NCBI RefSeq assembly: GCF_031127875.1 | Contig: NZ_JARXIA010000012.1 | Coordinates: forward strand, 124,001 to 188,000 | From: Pelagicoccus sp. SDUM812005 | Lineage (GTDB): Bacteria > Verrucomicrobiota > Verrucomicrobiia > Opitutales > Opitutaceae | Direction of reading: 5' to 3' | Length of the DNA: 64,000 nt | Shown here: positions 5,301 to 40,024 of the stretch, in pieces | Layout of the letters: every line of letters begins with the position of its first letter | How positions within the stretch are numbered: position 1 is the first letter of the stretch | Translations under genes and position numbers: made by a program | Notes under the pieces: model-generated | What the model saw: the letters and a program-made list of their open reading frames with translations, nothing else | Database searches by the model: none | What the model was told of the DNA's origin: nothing

Positions 5301-5426
5301 CGGATCGATATCCGGATACTCGCGCAAGGAGAGGCGGTCGAAGGAGACCATCCCGAAGGCGATCAACAATAATGATATAACGCTCGCGAATACGGGACGT
5401 TTTACGGATACATCGGATAATAGCAT
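2325..5426 (-). CDS. RND efflux pump inner-membrane transporter, HAE1 (AcrB) family
   Basis: This is a 1033-residue proton-driven pump that exports hydrophobic or amphiphilic compounds through a tripartite channel. The length is right for the family. The N-terminus (SVKRPVFASVISLLL, then YPDIDPPIVTVEVEYPGA) is diagnostic. The proton-relay pair is present as Asp401-Asp402 in GLVVDDAIVMLENIV, and the partner Lys927 lies in GLAAKNGILIVEFAN. Two large periplasmic loops separate the two six-helix halves. The ATG is 13 bases downstream of the adaptor stop, so the three genes form one operon in the order outer membrane protein, adaptor, pump. No local regulator is seen in this operon. The substrate cannot be predicted; the sequence is of the drug type, not the heavy-metal CusA type. 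Confidence 0.95.
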   Translation of the reverse strand: MLLSDVSVKRPVFASVISLLLIAFGMVSFDRLSLREYPDIDPPIVTVEVEYPGAPANIVETRVTELIEERVAGVEGIEFVQSSSSDGRSNVTIEFSVNRDVNEAANDVRDRISGIQDNLPEEAEPPEVQKVDSNDDVIIWQNLSSESMTVPELTDYAERYLVDQYSALDGVARIRVGGGMSYAMRVWLDRQALAARNLTVSDVEQALRSENVELPAGSLQSDQRIFKARVERSFQDPKDFAKLVLSRGEDGYLVRLGDVARIEKGVEEDRIMFRGNGVPMVGIGVIKQSTANTIEVAEATKALTEKLEKNLPEGMTISQSYDASVFIKASIREVYTTLFIAIGCVIFVIYIFLGSVRAMLIPAVTVPVSVVASFIVVFALGFSINLLTLLALVLAIGLVVDDAIVMLENIVRRMHELKETPLVASFRGARQVAFAVIATTLVLIAVFVPITFLEGDIGRLFTEFALTIAAAVAFSSLVALTLVPVLASKLLKNESEDTKKNFVLNGVERVFEWCKRIYMKLLVKVLKIPVVMTVLFALMLAGTAWLYPNVTQEFTPSEDRGAFFVMVNAPEGSSYKYIEEYMDVIEERLTPYVESGVFKRLLVRAPRGFGNIENFNSGILIVILDDWANRKSAFELMGEVRGKLADLPGIRAFPVMRQGLGGGTSKPVQFVLGGSTYEQLAEWRDILLEKIEEDNPGFEGLDSDYKETRPQLDFKVNYDRAADLGVTVSEIGTTLETLMGGKNVTTFLENGEEYEVVVEGDRERQRSFSDIESIYVRSARTGELIPLSNLVDLSEYGAAETLSRYNRVRAITLEANLKEGYSLGEALQHLEGLVREHLPQEAVIDYKGESRDFVTSGNSMIFVFLLGLAVVFLVLAAQFESYIHPFVIMLTVPLATGGGLLGLYLFGGTLNIYSQIGLIMLVGLAAKNGILIVEFANQLRDEGVEFSKALVDASEVRFRPILMTGLTTVAGALPLILSSGAGAETRSSIGIVVLFGVLAATVFTLFVVPAAYSLIARNTGSPNDIADRLEKEM

Positions 5427-5439
5427 GGTCGCCGGTATT

Positions 5440-6525
5440 CTATTGTTTCGCGCTGGAGCCCTTAAGCAGCTCGCCTAGCGACTCGCCGTTCTTCTCCACG
5501 GCCTTGATCACGACAGGGGCCCCCATCCGCAAGCGCAAGGTGCCGTGCGTAACCACCAGCTCCCCGACAGAAAGTCCGGAAAGGACCTCCGCCTCGCCAT
5601 AGCTTCGAGTGCCGATCTTCACCTTGCGGCGCTCCACGGTCTGTTTCCCTTCCGGTCCCACCACCACGAATACAAAATGCTCCGGACCGTCCGTCACCAG
5701 CGCCTCTTCCGGCACCAGCAAGGCATCGCGCGGATCCTTCTGCAACTCGACCTTCATCAGCAGGCCGGGCTTCAGCAAGCCCTCCTCGTTATCGATCAGG
5801 GCGCGAGCCTTGATGGAGCGGGTGACGGGATCGATGCGGCTGTCCACATTGGCGATCCTGCCCTCGAAGACTCGGCCGCGATAGGCCTCGGTCTCCGCCT
5901 CGATCACCACGCCGGGCTTCAAGGTAGACAAAAAGACTTCCGGAACAGAGAAATCCAGCTTCATCACGCTGACGTCGTCGATGGTGGCGATGACGGATCC
6001 CGGCTGGGCCAGGGCACCGACGCTGATATTGCGCAAGCCCAACACCCCGTCGAAGGGTGCCTTGATCACCCGCTGGTCGATGCGCGACTCGATGGCCTGC
6101 ATCCTCGCCTTCGCGCCGGCTAGGTCGCGCTCGCTCGCCGTCAAGGTCGAGGTCGACGCCGCCCCTTGCTCGATCAAGGGCTTGAGGCGGTTCACCTGCC
6201 GCTGCGCTTCCGCCATGATCGACTCCTGCTCGGCCATCTCGGCCAGCTCTTCCGCCGTATCCATTTCTACCAATACATCGCCCTTCTTCACGCGTTGGCT
6301 ATCGTCGAAGGAAACCTTCTTCACGATCTCGGTAACGGATGAGGTCAGCTCCACGCTCTCGTTCGCCCGTAAGGTCCCCAGCGCCTCCACCTCGTCGGCG
6401 TAGGGTTTCGAGACGGCCTTCGTCACGATCACCGGCGTGGGTGGAGCGGCGGCGCCTGTTGCCTGAGCCTGCATCTGAGTGACGCAAAGCTGAACAAGTA
6501 GTGAAATGATAAATACCTTCTTCAT
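5440..6525 (-). CDS. RND efflux periplasmic adaptor (membrane fusion protein)
   Basis: The product has 361 residues and a cleavable signal peptide (MKKVFIISLLVQLCVTQMQAQ). The order is that of AcrA/MexA adaptors: first lipoyl half (SVTEIVKKVSFDDSQRVKKG), a helical hairpin around residues 95-145 (EQESIMAEAQRQVNRLKPL), second lipoyl half (KAPFDGVLGLRNISVGALAQ), beta-barrel and membrane-proximal domain. No lipobox is visible, so it is probably a soluble periplasmic protein. It would bridge the pump and the outer membrane channel encoded on either side. Its ATG overlaps the stop codon of the upstream gene by one base (TAATG), which suggests translational coupling. Confidence 0.93.
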   Translation of the reverse strand: MKKVFIISLLVQLCVTQMQAQATGAAAPPTPVIVTKAVSKPYADEVEALGTLRANESVELTSSVTEIVKKVSFDDSQRVKKGDVLVEMDTAEELAEMAEQESIMAEAQRQVNRLKPLIEQGAASTSTLTASERDLAGAKARMQAIESRIDQRVIKAPFDGVLGLRNISVGALAQPGSVIATIDDVSVMKLDFSVPEVFLSTLKPGVVIEAETEAYRGRVFEGRIANVDSRIDPVTRSIKARALIDNEEGLLKPGLLMKVELQKDPRDALLVPEEALVTDGPEHFVFVVVGPEGKQTVERRKVKIGTRSYGEAEVLSGLSVGELVVTHGTLRLRMGAPVVIKAVEKNGESLGELLKGSSAKQ

Positions 6526-7910
6526 TAATTCTCTCCCCTATCGGTTTTTGCTGCAGCGCCAATCGGACCGCCGATCGCGCGGAACAGGTCCACGCGCGCC
6601 TGCAGCAAGTCGCGCTTGGCCGTAATCATATTGCGCTCTACCGCGCGCAGCTCCCGCAGCACGTTGATCACCGGCTGGTAATCGTCGACCCCCTGCGTGT
6701 AGCGCGTTTCCGCCGCGTCGACGGTTCGCTGCAGCAAGTCCCGCTGCACGGTAAGCTTTTCCAAAAATTCGCTCTGCTTGACCTCGCGGACCAAGGCGTT
6801 CTCCACGGCTTCCACCGCTTCCAGGAACAATTGCGTATAGGCCGCCAGGCGCCCTTCGTAGAGGGCTTTGTTGCGCTCCACTTCCGCCTTGCGCACACCC
6901 CAATCCAATAGCGGCTGGACGAAAGATGCGGCAAGATCGAAGACCGATCCCGTAAAGCTCGAATCGTCCGAAAGCAAATAGGAGGCGCTCAAAGTGATAG
7001 AGGGAAAACGGTCCGCAATGGCAGCCGCTATATCATGGTCCGCCGCCACTAGCTCGGAATAAGCGCTGCGCAGATCCGGACGGTTCAGCAGCAAGGCCGC
7101 CGGCACGCCGATAGCGGGCAAGTTCCGGTCGAAGCTCAAGCTCTCCGACACAGCCACTCGGGCTTGCCCATCCGGGTTCTCTCCGAGCAAGACGTCCAAA
7201 CGGTTTTCGAAAACCGCCAGCTCCGATTCCGCCAGCGGTATCAAGGTTTCGCTGTCCGCCACGCGGGCCTGCTGCTGCAGGACATCCACCTGGGCGCCGA
7301 CTCCGTTGTCCAGCCGCAGCTGAAGCAGGTTCTCCAATTCCCTGTCCAACTTGACCTGAGCCTTGAGCAGCTCGAGCCGCTCCCGGGCGGCCACCACTCC
7401 GAAGTAGGCGTTGGCCACCTCCACGCTCAAGGAAAGCTTCACGGCATCCACGTCCGCCGCCCGAGCCTGGGCTTCCAGCTGGTCCGCCTTCGCCGCGGCG
7501 CCGATCCGATTCCAGACGTCCACTTCCCAGGAAAGCGCCAAGCCCGCTTCCGCGGAACCGCGCTGCGACTCTCCGTCCTCCCAGTCCTGGGAAGCGCTGC
7601 CCTCCAGGTCGAGGCTAGGGTAGCGGCCGCCGCGGCTGCGCTGGGCGATCGACTGGGCTTGCCTCAACACCGACACCGATTGGGCCAGGTCGTAGTTCTG
7701 CGACAAGGACAGCGCGACCAGAGCGTTCAAAGCCGGCCGATCGAAGCTTTCCCACCAGGGGGCCGCAGCGATATCGCCTTGCGACGCAAAGGAATACGAG
7801 GCCAAGGGACTCACCTCTGGAGGGTTCGGCACGTCTTCCCGGTCAAAGGAAGCGCATCCGGACAAAAGCAGCACGCACCAGGCGGAAGGAGTTCTAAATA
7901 CGAATTTCAT
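6525..7910 (-). CDS. Outer membrane efflux lipoprotein, NodT/TolC family
   Basis: The protein is the exit duct of the RND system. A short signal peptide ends in the lipobox LLSGC (Cys at about residue 18 from the chosen start), so it should be acylated. Two outer-membrane-efflux repeats follow, with the usual motifs WWESFDRPALNALV, LSWEVDVWNRIGAAAKA and a second half beginning at NRPDLRSAYSELVAADHDI. The C-terminal coil ends with LLQARVDLFRAIGG. The ATG at 7908-7910 is preferred over the adjacent TTG three bases upstream. It is the first gene of the operon. The 265 bases upstream of it show no regulator gene. Confidence 0.93.
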   Translation of the reverse strand: MKFVFRTPSAWCVLLLSGCASFDREDVPNPPEVSPLASYSFASQGDIAAAPWWESFDRPALNALVALSLSQNYDLAQSVSVLRQAQSIAQRSRGGRYPSLDLEGSASQDWEDGESQRGSAEAGLALSWEVDVWNRIGAAAKADQLEAQARAADVDAVKLSLSVEVANAYFGVVAARERLELLKAQVKLDRELENLLQLRLDNGVGAQVDVLQQQARVADSETLIPLAESELAVFENRLDVLLGENPDGQARVAVSESLSFDRNLPAIGVPAALLLNRPDLRSAYSELVAADHDIAAAIADRFPSITLSASYLLSDDSSFTGSVFDLAASFVQPLLDWGVRKAEVERNKALYEGRLAAYTQLFLEAVEAVENALVREVKQSEFLEKLTVQRDLLQRTVDAAETRYTQGVDDYQPVINVLRELRAVERNMITAKRDLLQARVDLFRAIGGPIGAAAKTDRGEN

Positions 7911-8175
7911 CAAGCAAAAGAAAGCAGCAGTCGAACCGAGGCACCCGGTCCGCCTTGCATTTCCAAGGCAAGACGGGCGAACGCCCCAAAGATTGCAGCA
8001 AATTTCATGCGAACCGCCGCCGCCCGGCGATCGCGCTCAAACGTATTTAAACTCCGAATACAAACCCAGCCCCACCCTTTCGTCTGCCCCGGACCAGCCG
8101 CGCCGAAGCGATCAAGCGCGACTTTTGGTTCGAAGCTTCTGGAAACGAGAGAGAGGGGCCGCCTCTAAGGCAGCC
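7911..8175. other. Intergenic region upstream of the efflux operon
   Basis: About 265 bases lie between the efflux operon and the end of the CHASE/PAS kinase gene upstream of it; both are read leftward. It should hold the efflux promoter. I saw no clear operator, and the open frames crossing it are shadows of flanking genes. Confidence 0.4.
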
Positions 8176-26217: not shown

Positions 26218-27489
26218 ATGAGAATCTTCTCCCTGCAACGAATCAAAGCCCTCCACCAGCAAGCGAACTTTAGCGGTCTGCTCGCTTCCACCTTCGCCCT
26301 AGGCACCGCCTTCTCATTCGCGGCGCCCTTCCTATCCAAATGGGGGCTCGAAGAGGTTGGCATGACTCCAAGCGGCTTCGGTCTGTTCATGACCGCCACC
26401 TCCCTCTGCGCCATCCTGGCCAGCACCGCCCTCGCTCGCCTCTCGGACTCCCGCTTCTCCCGCCGCCAAATGCTCCTGCTCGGCAGCATCGGCGGCATCC
26501 TCGGCTTCGCCGGCTACGCTCTCGTCCGCAACACCGCAGCCCTGCTCGCCATCGGCTGCAGCTTCCACGCGGTGGCCTCCATCTGCTTCGCCCAGCTATT
26601 TTCCCACGTCAGGGAAACGTATCAACTCTCTGGAGACAACTCGACAAGCTCCAGCATCAGCATGAGCGTCGTGCGGGTCACCTTTTCCTTTTCATGGACC
26701 GTCGGCCCTGCCCTCGGCGCCACCATGCTGCTCGCCTTCGGCTTCCGCGGACTCTTCCTCGCCGCCGCCTTGCTCTACACCGTTTTCTTTATCGGCGTCC
26801 TCAGGTTCGTCCCCGAGCGAAAGCCGAAAGCGAGCGAATCCCCAAGCGGTCCGCCCAGCATCTGGACGACCCTCCGCCACCCGAAGCTTCTGCTCAGCTT
26901 CATCGCCTTCGCCGCCGTATTTGCCGCCACCGCCATCAACATGATGAATCTGCCCCTCGCCATCACCCGCAGCCTCAATGGTAGCGAGAGCGACCTCGGC
27001 ATCATATTCGCCATCGGCCCCATCGCGGAAATCCCCTTGATGATCTGGTTCGGCCAACTGGCCACCCGAGGACACCAACTCCTTCTAATCAAACTCGGAT
27101 TCGTCATAACGGGACTCTACTTCGCCGGACTCTTCATGGCCTTCCAACCATGGCATGTATACACGCTTCAACTACTGAGCGGAGCCTCCTTCGCTATCCT
27201 CTCCAACGTAGCCATCCTCTACTTCCAAGACCTCGCGCCCACGCAGATGGGCCTCGCGACTTCCCTTTTCTCCAACGCCGGCGCCATCGGCAATCTCCTC
27301 GGCATGCTCACCTTCGGTTTCATCCTCGAGCAATGGGGCCACCAATACACCTTCCTCGTCTGCGCCACCCTCACCTTCTTCGGACTATTCCTCATCCTTC
27401 GCGTCAAGGACGGACCCACCAAACACGAAAAAGCGGAGACCCCAAACCGGGATCTCCGCCAACCCACTGCTTCTCAAACGGAGGCTTAA
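26218..27489 (+). CDS. MFS transporter
   Basis: The product has 423 residues with 12 predicted membrane helices in two halves separated by a polar loop (about 200-215, RFVPERKPKASESPSG). The signature between helices 2 and 3 reads ARLSDSRFSRRQMLLLGS, a variant of the MFS G-x-x-x-D-R/K-x-G-R/K motif. The overall look, with many aromatic and serine residues in helix 4, is that of sugar-efflux (SetA-like) or small-solute transporters; the substrate is not predictable. Its last four bases overlap the convergent TonB receptor gene, and its 3' coding end contains the receptor gene's terminator hairpin. Confidence 0.85.
   Translation: MRIFSLQRIKALHQQANFSGLLASTFALGTAFSFAAPFLSKWGLEEVGMTPSGFGLFMTATSLCAILASTALARLSDSRFSRRQMLLLGSIGGILGFAGYALVRNTAALLAIGCSFHAVASICFAQLFSHVRETYQLSGDNSTSSSISMSVVRVTFSFSWTVGPALGATMLLAFGFRGLFLAAALLYTVFFIGVLRFVPERKPKASESPSGPPSIWTTLRHPKLLLSFIAFAAVFAATAINMMNLPLAITRSLNGSESDLGIIFAIGPIAEIPLMIWFGQLATRGHQLLLIKLGFVITGLYFAGLFMAFQPWHVYTLQLLSGASFAILSNVAILYFQDLAPTQMGLATSLFSNAGAIGNLLGMLTFGFILEQWGHQYTFLVCATLTFFGLFLILRVKDGPTKHEKAETPNRDLRQPTASQTEA
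27428..27459 (-). terminator. Terminator of the TonB receptor gene, embedded in the MFS coding end
   Basis: GCGGAGA (27433-27439) pairs with TCTCCGC (27453-27459), with CCC/GGG extending the stem inward. On the minus strand five T follow (complement of 27428-27432). It lies 26 bases after the receptor stop codon, inside codons of the convergent MFS gene. Confidence 0.7.
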
Positions 27490-30400
27490 AAAGCGAGGGT
27501 CGTAGTAAAGAATACCTGTCTTGGATCCACGATGCGGAAGGCGGTCTCTTCGCCATCGGGATTGATCGCGATCGCCTTCAAGCCACCGCTCTCAAACGCG
27601 TCCCGCACGTTGAGCTGGAACTTAAGCTCCGCCCGGTCCCCCTTCAAAGGCATCGTGTAGCTCGCCCAAAGGTCGACATGCGTCTCGTCGCCTCCGTACA
27701 CCGGCTTGTCCGCGTCGAGCTGCCGCACCACGCCGTCCGAATCCGCCGGTCCAGCAAGGTAGCCAATGATCGCCGCATCTTCCCAACGAACGCTGCCACC
27801 CACGCCGAAGCCCTTCAGGCTGCCGTCCATGAACATGTAGTTCGTGATCGCGTTCCAACGCCACTCCTTTTGGCCCGGCGTCTTCTTGCCCGCAAGGGTT
27901 CGCTGCAAGGCCATGTTCGCATCCACGTTCGTATTGAACCACTTCTCCGGCGTATTCAAAACTCCATGCAAAGCATTTCGCTTGGTTCCGATGTCAAAGG
28001 GAGCGTTATCGTTGTCGTAGTCCCAGAAGCTTTGGAATCCTTCCGGCAAGGCATCCGAACGTGCCGCCTTCCAGAAGGCTACCCGCTCTTCCTTCCATGC
28101 CGTATACTCGGGAGCGATATCGCTGTAGACCGTCTTCTGCTGGGCCGCGTTGAACTTGAAGTTCCAGTTCTTGGTAGGATTGTAAACCACCTGCAGCTCC
28201 ATGCCTTTCGCTTCCAAGGTACTCGTTCCCAAAACAGAATCGTTATAGGTCGCGAAATTGTCCGGATACTGCGTGATCTCCGCCACGCGAGCCTCCGCCG
28301 CAGCTCCAGAAAGGCCTTCCTCTTGCGCTACGTAGCGGGCCCAGTCCCCGAAGAAGTCTTCGTCGAAATAGCCCATACGCCAGATAAAGGTCCCCGTGCC
28401 TCCGACCCGAGAGTTCACTTGCCCTGCTTCGAAGAAGTTCAAGTTCGCGTAAAGCTTTCCGTCGAGCAGGTTCAATCCAATCCCCCAGTCCTTGCCTTCG
28501 CCAGTAGGCAACGGCAACGGCTCGCCTGTGCCGATATTGTACACGACGCCGGCCGGGGTGAAGTTGTCCGATTCGTTGTAGTGAAAATTCAACCACGGGG
28601 TCGGCTTAAATACGATGCCGGCCGTACTCGTAGAGCCCGACACTTCCTGCCAGTCGTTGAAGTTAACCGCTACATCCGCCGGATCCGCCATGCCCGTGCT
28701 CGGGTCAATCGCCGGAAAGCTGCTGGTGCGGCCTTTGTTGTCGTCCTGACGCCAACCAAGGGTAGTTACGATCTTATCGTCCCACAAACGGCTCTGCAAA
28801 ACGAAGGCTTCCGAATCCGTCTCTTGCTGCCCGCCATCGGACACGAAATGCAGCGTGCGGCCGAGCGCCACCGTTTCGCTTCCCGAAGTAAAAGAGTCAA
28901 GGCTCGCGTCCGCCGCCACTGGACCGGACGGGTAGGCCACTGACAAAGTTGCCGTCTCAGGACCATTGAAAATGTATCCAGGATCGTTAGACACGATTCC
29001 GTCAGAGCCACCAAGGTACATACGCTTATAGATGGCCCCGCCCACTCCGCCAACCCGATTGCTCTGGTCAACCCAAGGATTGTCGGATAAGGCCACTTGC
29101 CGCCAACGGTAATAAGCCGTATCGTATTCACGCGAACTCATCAACCCCATGGCCCGATGCGATCCGAAGTGACGCATCCAACCATCGCTCTCCGTAAAAT
29201 CCAACTCGTAAGCCAAGGTCGCCCGCAATGCAGCGTTGTCCTCAACCTGCACAAAATCGTCCGGTTCGCGAATCTCGATAAAAGGGCGTCCAAAATAAGG
29301 ATTCGCGCTTCCGTCCAAAAGGTGGGTATTGGGGTCTATCTCGATCGTAGCGCCCGTTTGCTGGCCGATAAAGTAGCTATTGGTCGCCTCGTACGATTCC
29401 TCGATATATCCAACGTTCAAATACAGGTTAGGAAGTATCTTCTGATCCCACTCCAAGGTCGCGATCGACGCGTCCGCGCTGCCAACATTGCTGGAAATGA
29501 TATTCAAATGCTCCCAATCGTAGAGATCCTGATTCGTCACGCCCGGATAGATGTAGAGCGGATCGAGCGTCTCACCATTCGTACGCAACATTCGGTAAAC
29601 CGTCCCGCCCGCGACCACGCCTGCGTCGTTACCTAAGCTACGCTGGTTGCCGCCAAGCAAGCTCCCTTGGTCGTAGTGGAAAACCGGACGCGTGGAAGGC
29701 GCCGCCAAACCAGCCGGCAAATCGCTGTTGGAGTCGATGGGACCAAAGGTCTGGCCATTCAACGTGTAGCTACGGGTCGTAGGGTTCCAGGTCGGGCTTC
29801 CAGCCTCCTTCCAAGGCGTGACCATGTCACGCGGGGTCACATTGTTCGGACGGCGATTTTCGTTTTCATAGTTCTCGTAAGTGCCACGAAAGGTCGTCTT
29901 CTCCGAAGGCTTGTAGGTGACTGCCAAATACTGCCGATCCGTCTCATCGTAGGACGGCTTGCGACGGAACCCCTTTTCCTCGTGCAACATCGCCACGTTC
30001 ACCGCCAGAATATCCTCAACGATGGTCGTGTTGTAGTTCCCGCTTACGCGAAACGCGTCCCAACTCCCCAGCCGAACCTGGGCCTTGCCGGACTCCGTAC
30101 CGATCATCGCCTTCTCTTGGCTCTGGTTCACGATACCGGCCGCGCTCCCGAGTCCGAACAAGATGCTATTCGGACCGCGGTTAATCTCTACCGAGCGCGT
30201 ATTGTACGAGTCGAAAGGAATACGGGCGATACTCGGAAAATAGTCCCTAGCAGTATCCGCCGGAGCAATACCGCGGACACGATTCGCCGTGGAAGGGCCA
30301 CTCGCCACACCGCCATTGCTCCGTCCAGCCCCGTGGTCGCGCACCGCCCCGTCCTTATCGATTTCATAGGAAGTATAGTTCCCCATCCCTTCCGTATTGG

Positions 30401-31124
30401 CTTCGTAGAGGAAAACGTCGTTGATATCCACCGCAGCCGTGTCTTCAAGCTGCTGGCTAGTCACCACCGTGATCGAGGAAGCCAGATCCGAAATGCTACT
30501 GTTCAAACGGCTACCCGCCAGAGTATTCTCCGAATAGTAGCCAATATCGTTTTCGGAGTTCTTAATTTCGAAAGGGGACAACTCAAAAACCTGCCCGTCC
30601 TCCAATCCATCGTTCTGGGCACTGCCCGCCACAGGGACAACGACCGCTAAAAGGCCCTTAAAGAGCTTACCTAGCTTTTTGCTTTTCTTATTGGGTTCAA
30701 AATTCATCTGAGATTCGTTATTTGTATTTTGTAAGTCAGCGGACTCGTCGGCCCCCGTCCGGGCTCCAGCCAATCTCGACCGCTCTACGATTCCATAAGC
30801 TCCTCCCCGACTAACCGGGACGGCCACGAGCGGGGTGCCCTCCAGCATCAAGTCCAAGGCTTCTTGCACTTCGTAGTGCCCCTCGATGGTATTCGTCCGC
30901 ACTTCGGACGAAGCCCCAACTGAAATCAGGATTTCCACCCCACCTTGACGCGCCGCAACTTTCAAGGCCTCGGCCGCATCCCCCGATTCCACATCGAAGT
31001 AAGCGCCGCAAGTATCCGGACACAGGATACCCGCCCACGTCGAGAGCACGCCGACCATCAAAATCCAAACGTTGCGTTGGCAACGATATAACATCAGCAA
31101 TACAGGACTTGAAAGAGTGGGCAA
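27486..31124 (-). CDS. TonB-dependent receptor with N-terminal STN signalling domain
   Basis: The product has 1212 residues. A signal peptide (about 18-36) is followed by an STN domain (about 40-120: FDVESGDAAEALKVAARQ, then EGHYEVQEALDLMLEGT), the periplasmic module that talks to FecR proteins. Next is a linker and, from Met140, a second signal-peptide-like segment (KKLGKLFKGLLAVVVPVAG), then plug entry VFELSPFEI, plug motifs (AGSRLNSSISDLASSITVV, RSVEINRGPNSILFGLGS) and a beta barrel ending in aromatic Phe (VFFTTTLAF). With the FecR and sigma genes upstream it forms a surface-signalling system: substrate binding outside releases the sigma factor inside. The substrate is unknown. Length and residue style match the large receptors common in Opitutales. 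Confidence 0.92.
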   Translation of the reverse strand: MPTLSSPVLLMLYRCQRNVWILMVGVLSTWAGILCPDTCGAYFDVESGDAAEALKVAARQGGVEILISVGASSEVRTNTIEGHYEVQEALDLMLEGTPLVAVPVSRGGAYGIVERSRLAGARTGADESADLQNTNNESQMNFEPNKKSKKLGKLFKGLLAVVVPVAGSAQNDGLEDGQVFELSPFEIKNSENDIGYYSENTLAGSRLNSSISDLASSITVVTSQQLEDTAAVDINDVFLYEANTEGMGNYTSYEIDKDGAVRDHGAGRSNGGVASGPSTANRVRGIAPADTARDYFPSIARIPFDSYNTRSVEINRGPNSILFGLGSAAGIVNQSQEKAMIGTESGKAQVRLGSWDAFRVSGNYNTTIVEDILAVNVAMLHEEKGFRRKPSYDETDRQYLAVTYKPSEKTTFRGTYENYENENRRPNNVTPRDMVTPWKEAGSPTWNPTTRSYTLNGQTFGPIDSNSDLPAGLAAPSTRPVFHYDQGSLLGGNQRSLGNDAGVVAGGTVYRMLRTNGETLDPLYIYPGVTNQDLYDWEHLNIISSNVGSADASIATLEWDQKILPNLYLNVGYIEESYEATNSYFIGQQTGATIEIDPNTHLLDGSANPYFGRPFIEIREPDDFVQVEDNAALRATLAYELDFTESDGWMRHFGSHRAMGLMSSREYDTAYYRWRQVALSDNPWVDQSNRVGGVGGAIYKRMYLGGSDGIVSNDPGYIFNGPETATLSVAYPSGPVAADASLDSFTSGSETVALGRTLHFVSDGGQQETDSEAFVLQSRLWDDKIVTTLGWRQDDNKGRTSSFPAIDPSTGMADPADVAVNFNDWQEVSGSTSTAGIVFKPTPWLNFHYNESDNFTPAGVVYNIGTGEPLPLPTGEGKDWGIGLNLLDGKLYANLNFFEAGQVNSRVGGTGTFIWRMGYFDEDFFGDWARYVAQEEGLSGAAAEARVAEITQYPDNFATYNDSVLGTSTLEAKGMELQVVYNPTKNWNFKFNAAQQKTVYSDIAPEYTAWKEERVAFWKAARSDALPEGFQSFWDYDNDNAPFDIGTKRNALHGVLNTPEKWFNTNVDANMALQRTLAGKKTPGQKEWRWNAITNYMFMDGSLKGFGVGGSVRWEDAAIIGYLAGPADSDGVVRQLDADKPVYGGDETHVDLWASYTMPLKGDRAELKFQLNVRDAFESGGLKAIAINPDGEETAFRIVDPRQVFFTTTLAF

Positions 31125-31228
31125 GGGGCATAGCTAAATCGGCTCGTCCCTATGACACTTCGCTATTATTAATTAACTAAATAGAACCTTATATATTATA
31201 TAAATTCTGGCTAAGATCCAAAGAGCTC
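31125..31228. promoter_or_regulatory. A+T-rich region upstream of the STN-TonB receptor
   Basis: Between the FecR stop and the receptor start lies a block with TTATATATTATATAA at about 31190-31204 and TTAATTAA near 31171. Its base composition is far from the flanking genes, so it probably holds the receptor promoter, perhaps recognised by the neighbouring sigma factor. No box was assigned. Confidence 0.4.
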
Positions 31229-32284
31229 CTATCGATCGAGATACAAGGTTATCTTCGACAAGCCACTTCGCTCCGATCGAACATTCTCCGTAAGCGAAAG
31301 AAGCTCCACAAATTCGTCCATGCGATTCGGGCGAATCGCCGCCGTAATCGGCAAATCCAGAAGCTCAGCGTCGGCGATCACCAGTTGGGTATGGTTGCGG
31401 CGATTGAACTCCAGGATCACTTCCGATAGCGGTGTCTCCGTGAAGTCTAGGGTCTCGTTCTTCCAAGCAAGACGCTGCTTGATCACCACCGTCGAAACCT
31501 CCTCCACCACCAAGGGCACAAGCTTCGAATTGAGCGAAACCACGGAACGCTGCCCTGCTTGCAAGGCCTTCACCAAAGGCTCGAGCTCGTCCACGATACT
31601 ATCGCGCGTAGTCGCGATCGAAGGGTTCATCAAAACCTTCCCTTCCGTCACGAGAACCTCCACCTCGTCCGGACTCAAGCTCACGTTGAAAGCGGTTCCC
31701 ACCGCCTGCACCACCGTCCCTCGCGCCCGCACCACAAACGGTCGCTCCTCATCCTTCGCTACCGTAAAATGCGCCTCGCCCGCCAGCAGGTCCACCAACC
31801 TCCTGTCCTCCAGGAAGCGCACCGCCACCTGTCCGCCGCGATTCAGCTCCACCACCGAACCGTCTTCCAGCACGTGATGCTCGTAGTAGCGGGCCGATTC
31901 GCCGGAAGCCAGCATCGTCGGCTCCGAACCGCCGCCTTGCAGAACCAAGAACCAAACGAGTAATGAAAATGCCAATACAGCCGCCATTCCCGCCCAAGCC
32001 AAGCCTCGCGCGTGCACGACGCGACGCGGAGCTACCGCCAGCAGATCGGGATTCGGCTCCAAGCTATGTTCCGGGCGCCACTCTGCCAAAAGGTTCATGC
32101 GATCCCAAATCCGCTTCAGCTCCCCATACTTCTCGGCATGCAAGGGACTCTCCGCCAACCAATCGAAAAACCGGTCCTGCTCATGCGGCTCCAAACCGGA
32201 GTCCTGTTTCGCGAGCCATTCCGACGCGGCTTCCCTGATTCTCTCGGATTCCGAGAACTGATTCGGTTCCTCTTCCATCTTCAC
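31229..32284 (-). CDS. FecR-type transmembrane anti-sigma regulator
   Basis: The product has 351 residues. The N-terminal cytoplasmic part (EAASEWLAKQDSGLEPHEQ, FDWLAESPLHAEKYGELKR) binds the sigma factor in this family. A single membrane helix follows (about 95-115, GLAWAGMAAVLAFSLLVWFLV), then the FecR periplasmic domain (DGSVVELNRGGQVAVRF, LLAGEAHFTVAKDEERPF, VVQAVGTAFNVSLSPDEVEV). The C-terminus (about 270-340) resembles an STN-like module (LDFTETPLSEVILEFNRRN). Its ATG overlaps the TGA of the sigma gene (ATGA), so the two are coupled. It should relay the signal from the STN domain of the downstream TonB receptor. Confidence 0.93.
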   Translation of the reverse strand: MKMEEEPNQFSESERIREAASEWLAKQDSGLEPHEQDRFFDWLAESPLHAEKYGELKRIWDRMNLLAEWRPEHSLEPNPDLLAVAPRRVVHARGLAWAGMAAVLAFSLLVWFLVLQGGGSEPTMLASGESARYYEHHVLEDGSVVELNRGGQVAVRFLEDRRLVDLLAGEAHFTVAKDEERPFVVRARGTVVQAVGTAFNVSLSPDEVEVLVTEGKVLMNPSIATTRDSIVDELEPLVKALQAGQRSVVSLNSKLVPLVVEEVSTVVIKQRLAWKNETLDFTETPLSEVILEFNRRNHTQLVIADAELLDLPITAAIRPNRMDEFVELLSLTENVRSERSGLSKITLYLDR

Positions 32285-32820
32285 AGCTTACCTGACGCGC
32301 AATATCTTTCTACGAAGTCCGCGCACTTGTTCACACCTATCGTGATCTGCGCGTTCACCGTGCGCGCCGAAATATTGAGCTTCTTAGCGATCTCCCGCTG
32401 GGACATCCCGTACACCTTCCGGAGCGTGAAGATCTGCCGGCAACGATCCGGCAAGGACTGGATCGCCTTCGTCAAGATCTCCAGCTCCTGGTTCCGAGCC
32501 ACCCTCTCGTGCACCTCGCTGCCTTCCTCGACAAAGTCGCACTCCTCCATCGCCACCGCCCGATGCTCTTCCCGCACCTTCGCATACCGCAAGGCATTGA
32601 GGGCCGCATTTCTCGCCGTCGCAAAAAGAAAGGCCTTCGGGGCCCGAACCACCTCCTTGCGGTTGGCCTTCATCACCTTCAGGTAAGCCTCCTGCACGAC
32701 ATCGTCGATATCGACGCCAGTCGGAAACTTGCTCTTTAGCCAGGCGCGTAGAACCGAGTCGTGGGGATACAGATTTTCGGCGAACCAAGAGTCCTCTTGG
32801 CTTGTTCGGACATTAAACAT
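32281..32820 (-). CDS. FecI-type ECF RNA polymerase sigma factor
   Basis: From the ATG at 32818-32820 the product has 179 residues. Region 2 reads VLRAWLKSKFPTGVDIDDVV, QEAYLKVMKANRKE and APKAFLFATARNAALNALR; region 4 reads AIQSLPDRCRQIFTLRKVYG and MSQREIAKKLNISARTVNA. The frame opens 26 codons earlier, but that part (SPSCGLGCLDRQVP) does not fit a sigma factor, while MFNVRTSQEDSWFAENL does. Sigma, FecR and the STN receptor together make up the classical Fec-type cell-surface signalling cassette. Expression is presumably limited until the receptor is occupied. Confidence 0.92.
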   Translation of the reverse strand: MFNVRTSQEDSWFAENLYPHDSVLRAWLKSKFPTGVDIDDVVQEAYLKVMKANRKEVVRAPKAFLFATARNAALNALRYAKVREEHRAVAMEECDFVEEGSEVHERVARNQELEILTKAIQSLPDRCRQIFTLRKVYGMSQREIAKKLNISARTVNAQITIGVNKCADFVERYCASGKL

Positions 32821-32949
32821 GGGCTGGATACGGGGTGGTACTTGTCTATCGAGACACCCCAGACCACAGCTTGGACTAAACGAAAAAGCGACCGCCACGA
32901 AATTGGACAGTTTGAATCGAGCCCTCCCGCGCCCTTCCCTCCACCCGAG

Positions 32950-35208: not shown

Positions 35209-38200
35209 ATGACTCGCCTCACGCTGCTCCCTCTTCTCCTCGCGCTCGCGACCCAGCTTCCCGCCCGGCCCCTTCTCGACTCCTGGTACACCGACGGCGC
35301 CGGCCGCTACGCCCGCATCTACCGAAGCACTGCCGACGAAACCGCCGCCAACGCCGTCACCACCTGGTCCCGCGGCGCAGGCGAGCAAAGCCAACCCACC
35401 TACGCCGGCGTGCACCAAATCGCCGTCAGCGACAGCTTCGCCTACATCCGAACCAGCGGGCTCGGCTTCCACACCATGGGCCCCTGGTACCTCAACCAAG
35501 CCAAGACCAACCTCTTCCCCAACTACCCCGCCAACCAAGCCACCCTCTTCAAGATCCCCCTCCAGCCAACCGCCATCTCCAGCTCCAAGACCCAAACCGG
35601 ACTCGGCACCATCGGCTACTTCGTCGACGGCATCGCCATGTTCGACTCCCGCGACGCCTTCTCCTACTCCAACTCCAACGCAACCGACGCCACCCCCAAC
35701 AGCAACTTCCGCGGCGACGGCGTTTGGAACCGCGACGCCTACGTCAACGAATCCGTCACCTTCGACGCCGCCAACGCTCACCAAGCCGGAGCCAACCACC
35801 ACTACCACGCCAATCCCCCCGCCCTGCGCCACCTCCTAGGCGATTCCGTTTCCTACGACCCCGCCACCAATCGCTACACCGAGCAAATCGGCGGCAACGG
35901 CCAACACTCCCCCATCATCGGCTGGGTCGTCGACGGACTCCCCATCTACGGCCCCTACGGCTACAGCAACCCGCTCGATCCCGAGAGCGGTATCCGAAGA
36001 ATGGTGACAGGCTACCAAAAGCGGGACGGCAGCAACGGCTCCGTCAACCTCAACGCCACCGGGCGCGCCACCCTCCCCCAATGGCTCGTGCGCAACGACC
36101 CCAGCTACAGCTCCACCACCCTCTCCCCCGATCGCTACGGCCCCAACGTCAACGCCACCTACACCCTCGGACACTACCTCGAAGACTACGCCTACAAAGG
36201 CGACCTCGGCCTCACCCTGGGAACCGACTTCGACCTCAACGAATACAACGTCCGCTACTGCGTCACCCCCGAGTTTCCCGAAGGCACCTGGGCCTACTTC
36301 ACCTGCATCCTCGAAGACGGCACCCCCACCTTCCCCTACAACATCGGTCGCTACTACTTCGCTCCCGTGCAAGGCGGAGCCGAAAACACCCTCCCCGACG
36401 ACGCCCAAGTCATCTACCGCGGCGGACCGGAAGCCGCTCCCCAGCTCGAAAGCTCCGACATCGATGCCGATACCGGCATGATCTCGCTCGTCTGGACCGG
36501 GGCCGAAGGCGGCAGCTACGTCGTCAAGGAATCCACTGACCTCAAAGAATGGATACAGATCTCAAATCCAATCGCCGTCGATTCGCAACAGCAGGCAGCC
36601 GCAAGCGAAAACGTCGACTACGCCTCCGCCGACTCCCTCTTCCACCGCATCGAACTCGCCAGCATCGCCCCCTTCGACGACGACGGCTTCGAGCTCGCTA
36701 CCCCCTCCAACTCCAATCCCGGCAGCGGCTCCTCCTCCAGCTTCCAAGCCACCTCCGCGACCACCCCGCCGCTCCCTCCCCAAAACGTCGTCACCCTCGC
36801 CGTCAACGGCATCGCAGTCACCATCACCGCCTACGACCAAACCGGCGGCACCGTCGACTTCACCCTCGACACCTCCACCCTCGCCCCCGGCAACTACAGC
36901 GTCACCATCACCTTCACACCGCCCAACGGCAGCGAAACCACCCGCACCTCCACCAACGCCATCACCATCGAGGCCTCCACCGCCAACAACATTCTGCTGC
37001 TCATCGTTGACGACTGGGGCATCGACTTCAGCCCCTTCGACAACGCCGCGGCCAACGTCCCCCTCCCCAATCTCCCCCACATGGAAAAACTCGCCCAACG
37101 CGGTATCCACTTTTCCAATGCGTACGCCCACCCCCTCTGCTCCCCCACCCGAGCCAGCATCCTGACCGGACGCCACCCCTTCCGCCACGGCGTCGGCAAC
37201 CCCGACGGAGCCAACCTCGCCGCCAGCGAAACCGCCCTCCCCGAACTCCTCGCCAGCCAGGACGCTCCCCACGGCCTCGCCTCCTTCGGCAAGTGGCACC
37301 TCGGCGGAGGACGCTCCGGCCCCGCCGACCGCGGCGGCTGGCAGAAGTTTGCCGGCATCCTGCAAGGCGGCGTCAGCGACTACAACGATTGGACAAAAGT
37401 CGAAGACGGCACCCAAACCACCAACGTCACCACCTACACCACCACCGACCAAGTCAACGAAGCCGTCGAATACATCGAAGCCCGCGACAGCCAGCCTTGG
37501 TTCGTATGGATGGCCTTCAACGCGCCGCATACACCCTTCCACGATCCCGCTCCCTACGTGACTCCAGAAAACGGATACTCGACCAGCGGCACCACCAACA
37601 CCGACCTCTACATCAAGGCCCTCGAAGCGCTCGACTCCGAAATCGGTCGCCTGCTCGAATCCGTCGACCTCGACAAAACCAACATCATCCTCATCGGCGA
37701 CAACGGCACCCCCAACCAAGTCGCCCAAACTCCATTCGGAAACGGCCACGCCAAAGCCGACCTCTACGAAGGCGGCATCCACGTGCCCATGCTCGCCGCC
37801 GGTCCCGACGTCACCGCCACAGCCGGCAACACCGAAGACACCTTCGTCCATTGCACCGACCTCTTCTCCACCATCGTCGAACTCGCCGGCATCGATCTCA
37901 ACGCCGCCACCGCCAACCTCCAGATCGACTCCCAAAGCCTCCTCCCCCTCTTCCGCGGCCAAGCCATGGACAGTCGCTATATCGTATCCGAAAAATTTGG
38001 ACAAGCCACCGGCAACGGACGCGCCCTCCGCTCCGAAACCTACCCCGAGTACAAACTCATCATCTTCGGCGACAAAGACAGCTCCGCCGATACCCCCAGC
38101 TTCGAGCTCTACCACCTCCCCACCGACGCCAACGAACAATCCCCCCTCAACCTCTCCACCCTCTCCGGCGACGCCCTTGCCGCCTACAACCACCTCCGCG

Positions 38201-38238
38201 ACATCGACGCCACCCTAGGAGGAGGCTACAGTGATTGA
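35209..38238 (+). CDS. Secreted YHYH-domain/sulfatase fusion protein
   Basis: From the ATG at 35209 the product has 1009 residues, with a signal peptide (MTRLTLLPLLLALATQLPA). Residues about 25-395 form a YHYH-type domain: GYFVDGIAMFDSRDAFSY, NHHYHANPPALRHLLGDS (here His197-His198-Tyr199-His200 instead of YHYH) and IIGWVVDGLPIYGPYGY. A linker and beta-sandwich-like stretch follow (about 400-590). A sulfatase domain runs from about residue 592 (ILLLIVDDWGIDF) to the end, with formylglycine Cys644 in CSPTRASILTGRHPF, GKWHLGGGR and GDNGTPNQ as metal and active-site motifs. It would hydrolyse a sulfate ester outside the cytoplasm after maturation by a formylglycine-generating enzyme. The stop overlaps the next gene by eight bases. 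YHYH domains have no proven activity. Confidence 0.87.
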   Translation: MTRLTLLPLLLALATQLPARPLLDSWYTDGAGRYARIYRSTADETAANAVTTWSRGAGEQSQPTYAGVHQIAVSDSFAYIRTSGLGFHTMGPWYLNQAKTNLFPNYPANQATLFKIPLQPTAISSSKTQTGLGTIGYFVDGIAMFDSRDAFSYSNSNATDATPNSNFRGDGVWNRDAYVNESVTFDAANAHQAGANHHYHANPPALRHLLGDSVSYDPATNRYTEQIGGNGQHSPIIGWVVDGLPIYGPYGYSNPLDPESGIRRMVTGYQKRDGSNGSVNLNATGRATLPQWLVRNDPSYSSTTLSPDRYGPNVNATYTLGHYLEDYAYKGDLGLTLGTDFDLNEYNVRYCVTPEFPEGTWAYFTCILEDGTPTFPYNIGRYYFAPVQGGAENTLPDDAQVIYRGGPEAAPQLESSDIDADTGMISLVWTGAEGGSYVVKESTDLKEWIQISNPIAVDSQQQAAASENVDYASADSLFHRIELASIAPFDDDGFELATPSNSNPGSGSSSSFQATSATTPPLPPQNVVTLAVNGIAVTITAYDQTGGTVDFTLDTSTLAPGNYSVTITFTPPNGSETTRTSTNAITIEASTANNILLLIVDDWGIDFSPFDNAAANVPLPNLPHMEKLAQRGIHFSNAYAHPLCSPTRASILTGRHPFRHGVGNPDGANLAASETALPELLASQDAPHGLASFGKWHLGGGRSGPADRGGWQKFAGILQGGVSDYNDWTKVEDGTQTTNVTTYTTTDQVNEAVEYIEARDSQPWFVWMAFNAPHTPFHDPAPYVTPENGYSTSGTTNTDLYIKALEALDSEIGRLLESVDLDKTNIILIGDNGTPNQVAQTPFGNGHAKADLYEGGIHVPMLAAGPDVTATAGNTEDTFVHCTDLFSTIVELAGIDLNAATANLQIDSQSLLPLFRGQAMDSRYIVSEKFGQATGNGRALRSETYPEYKLIIFGDKDSSADTPSFELYHLPTDANEQSPLNLSTLSGDALAAYNHLRDIDATLGGGYSD

Positions 38239-40024
38239 GCAACTGCAACGCACGGTCGGCGCTCGCGCCGCACCACATTGCAGGATCCCCCTCCCCAACT
38301 TTTCACTCTTCACCCTTCTCCTTTCACTCCTCGCCCTTCCCCCTTCCCTCCTCGCCACCCCTCTCAGCCTCACGCACCACCACAGCTTCAACCAAGCCCC
38401 CATCCGCGACGCCCATTGGCATCGCAACGCCTCCGGCACGCTGCTCACCTTCAGCCGTCTCAGTTACTACCTCTCCGACCTCGCCTTCGTCGACGCCGCA
38501 GGCAACGCCACTCCCGCGTCTCCATCGCTCCACTACGTCGACGCCTTCACTCCAGATCCAGCCCCCACCACCCTCGATCTTCCCCCGGGGGACTACACCG
38601 CCATCCGCTTCAACCTCGGACTCCCGCCCGACCTCAACCACTCCGACCCCAAGCAATACCCAGCCAGCCATCCACTCAGCTCCATCGCCAACGCCATGCA
38701 CTGGTCATGGCAATCCGGATACATATTCTGCGCCATCGAAGGCTACGCCACCGCCACCGACGCCACCGAACAGCTCGGCTTCTCCTACCACCTCGCCAAC
38801 GACGCCTTCCTCGTCCCCGTCGAAATCCCCCTCGACCTCGCCCACCGAGACTCGCCCCAGTCCCTAGAACTCGCCTTCGACCTCGGCGCCCTGCTCGACG
38901 GACAAGGCTTCTCCCTACTCGAGCGCAGCTCCACCCACTCCCGCCCCGGCGATCCCGTCGCTATCAGCCTCGCCGCCCAGCTCCCCAAGGCCTTCAGCGC
39001 GACCCGCAGCTCCCACGCGACAGCTTCCGCCACCAGCTCCGCCCCAGCCGCCCCACCCGCAGCTGCCTTCGTCGGCACCCCGCTGCCCTTCTCCCTTCCC
39101 AAAAACTTCCCCATCCCCAACCTCCCCACCGACTATCCGCTCACCCAAGAACGCGTGGAGCTCGGCCAAACCCTCTTCCACTCCACCGACCTTTCCCGCA
39201 ACGGCGCCCTCTCCTGCGTCAGCTGCCACAGCGCCGAAAACGCCTTCGCCGATCCCCGCCAATTCAGCGTCGGTTTCGACGGCAGCCTCGGCCGCCGCCA
39301 ATCCATGCCCCTGCTCAACCTCGCCTGGAAAACCTCCTTCTTCTGGGACGGACGAGCCGCCAGCCTCCGCGAGCAAGTCCTCCACCCCATCCAAGACCCC
39401 ACCGAAATGGGAGCCGAACTCCCCCACCTCCTCGCTCGCCTGCAAGCGAACCCCGTATTCGCCGCCCAATTCCAGGCCGCCTTCGGCGACCCCCAAATCA
39501 CCGCCGAACGCCTCGGCATCGCCCTCGAAAGCTTCCTCCTCACCCTCACCTCCTACCAGTCGAAGTTCGACTCCGCCGTTGCCGGCCAAACCGAACTCAC
39601 CGCCCAGGAAAAACGCGGCTTCGAGCTCTTCACCACCGAGTACGACCCCCGCCGCCAGCTCTACGAGGCCGACTGCTTCCACTGCCACGGCTCCGCCACC
39701 TTTTCCGACAACCTCTTCCACAACAACGGCCTTCCGCCCACCGACGACCGCGGCCGCGCCGCATTCACCGGCCGCGAGAGCGACGCCTACAGCTTCGCCA
39801 CCCCCACCCTACGCAACGTCGCCGCCACTGCTCCCTACATGCACGACGGCCGATTCCAAAGCCTCGAAGAGGTCATCGCCCACTACAACTCGGGTATTCA
39901 AAAATCCAGCACGCTCGACCCCAACCTCGCCAAGCACCCCACCACCGGACTCCAGCTCAGCGACGCCGACCAAGCCGCCCTCGTCGCCTTCCTCCGCACC
40001 CTCACCGACCCGCGCTTCGAGTAG
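38231..40024 (+). CDS. MbnP-like copper-binding domain fused to MbnH/MauG-type di-heme peroxidase
   Basis: The product has 597 residues from a GTG inside the end of the sulfatase gene. A signal-peptide-like stretch (FSLFTLLLSLLALPPSLLA) leads into an MbnP-type domain, about residues 45-255: LTFSRLSYYLSDLAFVDAAG, LPPGDYTAIRFNLGLPPD and MHWSWQSGYIFCAIEG (Trp158, Trp160). After an Ala/Pro/Ser linker comes a di-heme cytochrome c peroxidase domain (about 290-597) with two haem motifs, CVSCH at 329-333 and CFHCH at 482-486, plus SMPLLNLAWKTSFFWDGRA, PIQDPTEMG and LRNVAATAPYMHDGRF. In methanotrophs separate MbnH oxidises a Trp of MbnP to kynurenine, creating a copper site; here enzyme and substrate appear to be one chain. 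The start codon is unusual but no better in-frame one exists. Confidence 0.87.
   Translation: MIEQLQRTVGARAAPHCRIPLPNFSLFTLLLSLLALPPSLLATPLSLTHHHSFNQAPIRDAHWHRNASGTLLTFSRLSYYLSDLAFVDAAGNATPASPSLHYVDAFTPDPAPTTLDLPPGDYTAIRFNLGLPPDLNHSDPKQYPASHPLSSIANAMHWSWQSGYIFCAIEGYATATDATEQLGFSYHLANDAFLVPVEIPLDLAHRDSPQSLELAFDLGALLDGQGFSLLERSSTHSRPGDPVAISLAAQLPKAFSATRSSHATASATSSAPAAPPAAAFVGTPLPFSLPKNFPIPNLPTDYPLTQERVELGQTLFHSTDLSRNGALSCVSCHSAENAFADPRQFSVGFDGSLGRRQSMPLLNLAWKTSFFWDGRAASLREQVLHPIQDPTEMGAELPHLLARLQANPVFAAQFQAAFGDPQITAERLGIALESFLLTLTSYQSKFDSAVAGQTELTAQEKRGFELFTTEYDPRRQLYEADCFHCHGSATFSDNLFHNNGLPPTDDRGRAAFTGRESDAYSFATPTLRNVAATAPYMHDGRFQSLEEVIAHYNSGIQKSSTLDPNLAKHPTTGLQLSDADQAALVAFLRTLTDPRFE

Follow-up and report, generated by a model that had tools for sequence, protein, structure and literature searches.

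The closest described counterpart of the gene studied here is the MbnP/MbnH pair, known from the solved structures of MbnP of Methylosinus trichosporium (7l6g) and of MbnH (6e1c). Manesis et al. are said to have found in 2021 that MbnH turns the first Trp of the WxW motif of M. trichosporium MbnP into kynurenine. MauG oxidises a substrate Trp at a distance via a bis-Fe(IV) state. MbnP and MbnH are encoded by two neighbouring genes (excerpt of PMC3621798), and MbnPH-like genes occur in copper operons (excerpt of PMC9426467). In MopE/SACCP and CorA/CorB of methanotrophs, kynurenine and two His are found at the copper and a gene resembling that of a bacterial di-haem cytochrome c peroxidase (bCcP) is co-transcribed; the kynurenine of CorA is a second-sphere ligand (both from an excerpt of PMC3912023). 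We analysed a stretch of 64,000 nucleotides from Pelagicoccus sp. SDUM812005 (NZ_JARXIA010000012.1, positions 124,001 to 188,000; hereafter the window), in which a single gene at 38231-40024 (+) joins an MbnP domain to a di-haem domain of the MauG/MbnH type. This is a real, conserved enzyme-substrate fusion, and an established variant of a known copper system that is undescribed within the literature searched. That search returned no paper on an MbnP-MbnH fusion; the primary papers on MbnP and MbnH lay outside it and may mention fusions.

The fusion shares with the MbnP/MbnH pair both domains by profile and by fold, the WxW motif, a Tyr at the second haem position and the order of MbnP followed by the haem enzyme. 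It differs from the pair in being one polypeptide, in scoring below both NCBIfam equivalog cut-offs, in having two extra conserved His (H147 and H157), and in lacking the four-Cys pattern (a name that comes from the molecule name of 7l6g). It also has no MbnB-family gene and stands next to a gene of the YHYH family. MauG (3l4m and others) resembles it in fold (Z about 27), in the position of the Tyr ligand and in the proposed peroxide-driven oxidation of Trp, but the substrate of MauG is a separate protein; no mau proteins were found among the 17 window proteins scanned with Pfam. MopE/SACCP and CorA/CorB, by analogy with which we propose kynurenine and two His at the copper site of the fusion, are likewise separate proteins and not one chain. 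The overall fold of the haem domain is that of the classical bCcP, from which (His/Met second haem, bis-His first haem) the fusion differs by Tyr552 and by the lack of a conserved loop His.

The reading that we favour, if only slightly, is that of a self-modifying exported copper protein with a kynurenine site, in other words a copper protein bearing its own maturation enzyme. In this reading, the di-haem domain at the C-terminus would react with peroxide and pull electrons from W158 of the N-terminal MbnP domain, which would be turned into kynurenine. Together with conserved His (chiefly H187 and H236, and perhaps H157 and H147), the kynurenine would form a site for one copper ion. Considering that enzyme and substrate are on one chain, the modification would most simply take place within the molecule. 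Outside the cytoplasm, the protein may help to acquire or buffer copper, jointly with the YHYH protein encoded just upstream.

A single frame encodes both domains

The gene has 597 codons with a GTG start, and both domains lie within its single frame. The coordinates, the quoted peptides, the CXXCH motifs at residues 329 and 482 and the Trp at 158 and 160 given in the original prediction were all recovered. The parts of the protein are as follows (47/47 refers to the fused proteins found by Pfam searches, see below):

38231-38356 (+): predicted N-terminal export signal region, residues 1-42, with the hydrophobic stretch FSLFTLLLSLLALPPSLLA; its end was placed by eye
38357-39013 (+): MbnP domain, residues 43-261 by fold (Pfam match 44-226); PF20243, fold match 7l6g
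38702-38710 (+): WxW motif, made of the conserved W158 (expected kynurenine), S159 and W160
39014-39079 (+): linker between the MbnP and di-haem domains, residues 262-283, rich in Ala, Ser and Pro
39080-40021 (+): di-haem domain of the MauG/MbnH type, residues 284-597 by fold; PF03150, TIGR04039, fold match 6e1c
39215-39229 (+): first haem motif, CVSCH, residues 329-333
39326-39328 (+): W366, second candidate for the counterpart of MauG W93, conserved equally to W372 (47/47)
39344-39346 (+): W372, candidate Trp between the two haems (W93 of MauG), 47/47
39674-39688 (+): second haem motif, CFHCH, residues 482-486
39884-39886 (+): Tyr552, where MauG/MbnH have a Tyr as ligand to the second haem; aligns with a Tyr of 6e1c

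Both assignments made from the letters, an MbnP-like domain followed by an MbnH/MauG-like one, hold by profile and by fold. PF20243 (MbnP) matches residues 44-226 with 101.7 bits (E 6.1e-29), well past its curated cut-off of 27, and the N-terminal half thus does match MbnP, the point on which the prediction had staked itself. PF03150 (CCP_MauG) matches residues 307-454 (E 1.1e-50, 172.6 bits against a curated cut-off of 25.6). The best NCBIfam match of the fusion is the MbnH model TIGR04039 (residues 299-596, E 3.4e-68); the second is the MauG equivalog TIGR03791, whose cut-off was missed (215.6 bits vs 443.85). Hence, the fusion belongs to the broad families PF20243 and PF03150, yet lies below the equivalog cut-offs of MbnP, MbnH and MauG. 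The best solved relative by sequence is MbnH 6e1c (E 6.5e-46), and a profile built from 14 fused MbnP domains had MbnP 7l6g as its sole match in the PDB (E 0.0039). Most likely, the fusion works like MbnP/MbnH.

We also considered that an assembly or sequencing error had joined two genes. The probability of this is practically nil: the architecture is identical in every relative with a traceable and not visibly broken frame, and we found nothing in favour of an error, which the intact fusions of relatives refute. The nearest named relative, a protein of Pelagicoccus mobilis, is also fused (54% identity over window residues 70-591, with 6 gap columns in 525). Since it is equally fused and the gaps are few, a sequencing frameshift is not needed to account for the fusion; the frameshift between the domains that had been named as a possible undoing of the original prediction did not turn up.

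Predicted structures place the two domains on solved folds

We built two AlphaFold2 models. Model 1 covers window residues 43-597 and used an alignment of 69 fused rows (mean pLDDT 87.3, pTM 0.87); model 2 is of a protein 44% identical to the window fusion, from locus L066, and used 35 alignment rows (pLDDT 84.9, pTM 0.85). By VIA-align, residues 242-555 of model 1 superpose on MbnH 6e1c with a Z of 31.2 (rmsd 2.0, 301 residues) and its residues 1-219 on MbnP 7l6g with a Z of 17.9 (rmsd 3.2, 205 residues). Model 2 gave similar results, with a Z of 32.5 to MbnH and of 17.9 to MbnP 7l6g (rmsd 3.6, 216 aligned). Structure prediction, which the first reading had proposed as a check, has yielded two models that match the solved MbnH and MbnP folds.

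The models also hint at where the WxW segment lies. Bacterial di-haem peroxidases, MauG and MbnH excluded, align to model 1 from residues 116-118, which are the WxW, in 20 of the 24 rows (the exceptions are 3o5c, YhjA and two BthA rows). In model 2 the alignments start at 117-121 (WxW is 119-121) in 21 of 24, with YhjA and two BthA rows as the exceptions. Because the alignments start at the WxW, we read this segment as packed on the haem domain, at the site that those peroxidases occupy with their N-terminus. These alignment ranges hint that the segment would lie against the haem domain. The distance between the first Trp and the first CXXCH motif varies little, with a median of 171 and quartiles of 169 and 172, and falls within 165-178 in 103 of 120 cases.

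These data bear on whether the reaction takes place within one chain. The same chemistry might occur between chains, in which case the haem domain would oxidise W158 of another molecule in a dimer or oligomer and the fusion would fix stoichiometry and co-export. Related peroxidases do dimerise (excerpt of PMC10094543), and the linker has lower confidence in model 1 (57 for residues 263-272 and 73 for residues 273-282). The narrow spacing and the two single-chain models, with the WxW seemingly against the haem domain, weakly favour action in cis, and we regard oxidation between chains as unlikely, if the most credible of the alternatives.

Conserved residues and a candidate copper site

We followed conservation in two sets. 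The first comprises 47 distinct fused proteins (the window included) from Pfam searches, chosen without the WxW motif. The second has 112 rows, namely these 47 and 65 from a further contig scan, and was obtained from 122 fused frames by removing 8 duplicates and loci L041 and L050. The scan used the pattern [LM]HWxWx[GSA]GY[IV], drawn from fused MbnP domains, which favours fused forms and makes the WxW conserved by construction. Rows of both sets were picked for two CXXCH, meaning that the haem motifs are conserved by choice; the same selection applies to alignment A2, where 69 of 69 rows match both Pfam models.

W158, one of the two Trp put forward from the sequence as candidate substrates, is present in 47/47 of the proteins found without the motif and in 112/112 of the enlarged set. 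We take it to be the counterpart of the MbnP Trp that becomes kynurenine. W160 and H157 are each found in 46/47 and 111/112, and H147 in 46/47 and 110/112, while H187, H236, D241, E170, W366, W372 and Tyr552 are each present in 47/47 and 112/112. Given that kynurenine and two His are at the copper in MopE and CorA, H187 and H236 are the first candidate ligands in the fusion.

For comparison, we set 14 fused rows, the window among them, against five split MbnPs. These come from plasmid-borne cases in which MbnP is upstream of the haem enzyme on the same strand, with gaps of 55 bases in Deinococcus radiodurans, 78 in Trichormus, 2 in Paracoccus and 7 in Ideonella, and with two genes in between in D. 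grandis. Some of these split homologues are in copper gene sets, with CopC and CopD in Deinococcus radiodurans and with PCu(A)C and SCO in Paracoccus seriniphilus. The WxW and the His of H187 are common to all five split MbnPs. A likely counterpart of the H236 His, judged by eye, was seen only in the two Deinococcus proteins, and H147 and H157 have no counterpart in the five.

In the haem domain, Tyr552 is at what we take to be the position of the second-haem ligand of MauG, and is predicted to have this role. A conserved His was sought in the loop that follows the first haem motif (columns 334-371) and none was found, the highest value being 21% of the 112 rows at one column. The first haem of a classical bCcP is bis-His until activated and its second haem is His/Met (excerpt of PMC10094543). 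As Tyr552 lies close to where classical enzymes have the Met ligand, and no loop His is conserved, we infer that the haem domain should react with peroxide without reductive activation. MauG has both Trp93 and the Tyr haem ligand, and classical bCcPs too carry a Trp between the haems (excerpt of PMC6405878).

The haem domain is related to bCcPs as well, and the protein could instead be a peroxidase that removes peroxide. Its MbnP domain would then donate electrons or act as an anchor, and its Trp would be a relay, with no kynurenine formed. BthA offers a precedent: this di-haem enzyme has a Tyr ligand and forms bis-Fe(IV), but converts peroxide to water (excerpt of PMC6405878). However, the first Trp and the His/Asp set occur in 47/47 fused proteins and the closest solved relatives are MbnH and MbnP, which makes a plain peroxidase improbable.

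Distribution and origin of the fusion

PF20243 has one match in the source genome and was found in 3 of the 8 genomes of the genus, 8 of 57 near relatives, 35 of the 372 genomes of the order and 22 of the 387 of the phylum. The 51 loci from these searches correspond to 50 distinct genes, and in 48 of these a single frame holds the MbnP match together with two CXXCH. Among the 48 is one frameshifted copy (L041/L050) whose first MbnP part is in another frame; another of the 50 genes (L016) runs off the end of its contig. Four PF20243 matches of the order sample are outside this count: frames of 607 and 844 residues, which are fusion-sized, and two at contig starts. The WxW pattern is missed by L045 and L048, although the first Trp is present in both and the second in L048.

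The 26 MbnP places of the phylum sample are made up of 24 intact fusions, the frameshifted L041/L050 and one interrupted copy (L046), with no free-standing MbnP among these 26 places in 387 Verrucomicrobiota genomes. The interrupted copy, in a distant phylum member, lies beside a transposase-like frame and still has a YHYH gene upstream. The pattern scan gave a similar picture: among the 80 relatives kept out of 430, 73 are fused, 7 are cut by contig ends and none is an unfused MbnP, the pattern being biased to fused forms. Fused frames of 675 residues each occur in the genus (L003) and in Pelagicoccus mobilis (L052). In Verrucomicrobiota, MbnP thus usually occurs as this fusion and the window does not hold a single case, a point that the original prediction had missed; the survey of its frequency suggested there finds it recurrent. 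We considered whether the fusion was an isolated curiosity and rejected this, as the same architecture is found in many genomes of the phylum.

The 80 relatives kept out of 430 comprise 76 from Verrucomicrobiota, two from Planctomycetota (L073, L076), one labelled Proteobacteria (L075) and one from Fimbriimonadia (L054). All four outside Verrucomicrobiota are from metagenome-assembled genomes, where contamination is possible. A sample centred on a Planctomycetota genome had MbnP in 1 of 246 genomes, namely the centre genome alone.

We built a tree of the haem domains of the 112 fused and 15 unfused rows by a quick method with midpoint rooting. The fused haem domains form one clade, on one side of a branch (SH-aLRT 98) opposite the 15 unfused ones, and free-standing Photobacterium enzymes adjoin it. 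The simplest reading of this tree, where 14 of the small sample of 15 unfused rows are plasmid-borne and some are on long branches, is that adjacent genes may have fused once and that the fusion then spread somewhat beyond the phylum. The source genome has a second CCP_MauG enzyme (L142, G000:C29:118654-119097), unfused and 355 residues long, which groups with the unfused enzymes. Four plasmid genes (L137, L138, L139 and L141) are annotated as 'methanobactin export MATE transporter MbnM', which is contradicted by two CXXCH in each; they are di-haem genes.

The YHYH partner

Two features precede the fusion:

35209-38238 (+): upstream partner gene, with a YHYH domain (about 35548-36303) and a sulfatase domain (about 36988-37893) in one frame
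38217-38225 (+): strong Shine-Dalgarno-like AGGAGGAGG, ahead of the fusion GTG

The partner gene matches PF14240 (YHYH; E 1.5e-34) and PF00884 (sulfatase; E 3e-42), and its sulfatase domain carries a CSPTR motif, which is presumably of the formylglycine type. The fusion GTG is inside the 3' end of this gene (stop at 38236-38238), and the resulting 8-base overlap (38231-38238) suggests that the two may be translationally coupled. Homologues of the YHYH and sulfatase parts, with order and strand kept, are also upstream of the fusion in Pelagicoccus mobilis and at some other loci.

Within the 387 phylum genomes, YHYH is present in 22/22 with MbnP vs 26/365 of the others (Fisher p 6.6e-23, kinship ignored; one of the 48 YHYH genomes, G184, falls below the family cut-off). 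It is within 6 kb of MbnP in 17 of the 22 genomes, at 17 of the 26 MbnP places, and the source genome has one MbnP and one YHYH, which adjoin. A tblastn search with the YHYH part of the window protein found a homologue in the available flank of 39 of the 73 fused loci. Of the 58 loci where 2.5 kb or more of upstream sequence is available, 34 have a YHYH homologue and 24 are without a close one. We also searched the neighbour frames with Pfam; these frames are the longest open ones rather than gene predictions, and some of them are therefore spurious. YHYH is the commonest upstream family (28/112). The YHYH gene is thus a recurrent partner of the fusion, a point that goes beyond the original prediction. 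We searched the literature for the YHYH family by title, and found no title on it among those listed and no described function.

This association raises the question of whether the substrate of the haem domain is the neighbouring YHYH protein, for which the MbnP domain would be a dock or copper donor. The presence of YHYH in every MbnP genome, its proximity in 17 and the overlap of the genes in the window would fit such a role. Yet YHYH is not within 6 kb of MbnP in 5 of the 22 genomes, 24 of the 58 loci are without a close upstream homologue, and the expected substrate motif is in the fusion itself. We therefore think it very improbable that the YHYH protein is the substrate.

The 57 downstream frames of other genomes have GSDH (5), Kelch (5), YHYH (4) and glyoxal oxidase N-terminal (4) domains. 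Sorbosone dehydrogenase-like and Kelch/glyoxal oxidase-like frames recur there. Glyoxal and galactose oxidases depend on copper, and the recurring frames might encode copper enzymes that the fusion serves.

Weight of the evidence and implications

Several observations speak against a self-modifying copper protein. We found no biochemistry on any fused member. The cut-offs of TIGR04039 (MbnH equivalog; 230.2 bits vs 362.85) and TIGR04052 (MbnP_like_WxW equivalog; 50.4 bits vs 140) were missed by a wide margin. The model confidence around the WxW is middling (72 for block 111-120 of model 1, 86 and 84 in model 2), and the MauG and MbnH alignment rows stop short of this segment in both models. 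The Cys of the Trichormus, Paracoccus and Ideonella MbnPs, which are of the TIGR04052 type, are missing at those columns in the 14 fused rows, and the copper site, if any, would thus be no copy of that split type. To these can be added the five MbnP genomes that lack a nearby YHYH gene, the few plain copper genes among the neighbours of the fusion in other genomes, and the fact that no copper role of YHYH is known to us.

Where enzyme and substrate are separate, as in the known pair, they first have to meet, and the way in which a MauG-like enzyme gets access to its Trp is difficult to investigate. With a natural fusion kept across a phylum, a single gene would suffice to test this question. 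The fusion also points to kynurenine-based copper handling outside methanotrophs and methanobactin, and would give the YHYH family a testable link to it. A broader account can be offered tentatively: a self-maturing chain that arose from one fusion event, became the usual form in Verrucomicrobiota, has a few carriers in Planctomycetota and Armatimonadota, and belongs to an undescribed YHYH copper module.

Other genomic context

No methanobactin genes had been seen in the window at first, and the MbnB family PF05114 has 0 matches in the whole source genome; the control gave matches in 2 of 14 genomes. We thus rejected a methanobactin context.

A TonB-plug protein, a FecR and a sigma-70-like factor are in a row at 27486-32898 (-), near the fusion. 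Isolated MbnP/MbnH pairs of Methylosinus have sigma-70-like, FecR and TonB-plug-type neighbours (excerpt of PMC3621798). In our data, the source genome has 5 FecR genes, FecR has no match in the loci searched and the TonB-plug protein has one (L033). With so many FecR genes in the genome and near-zero matches at other loci, chance adjacency is as likely an explanation for this set. Further away, an RND efflux set at 2325-7913 (-) comprises an AcrB-type pump, a CusB/HlyD-type adaptor and an outer membrane efflux protein.

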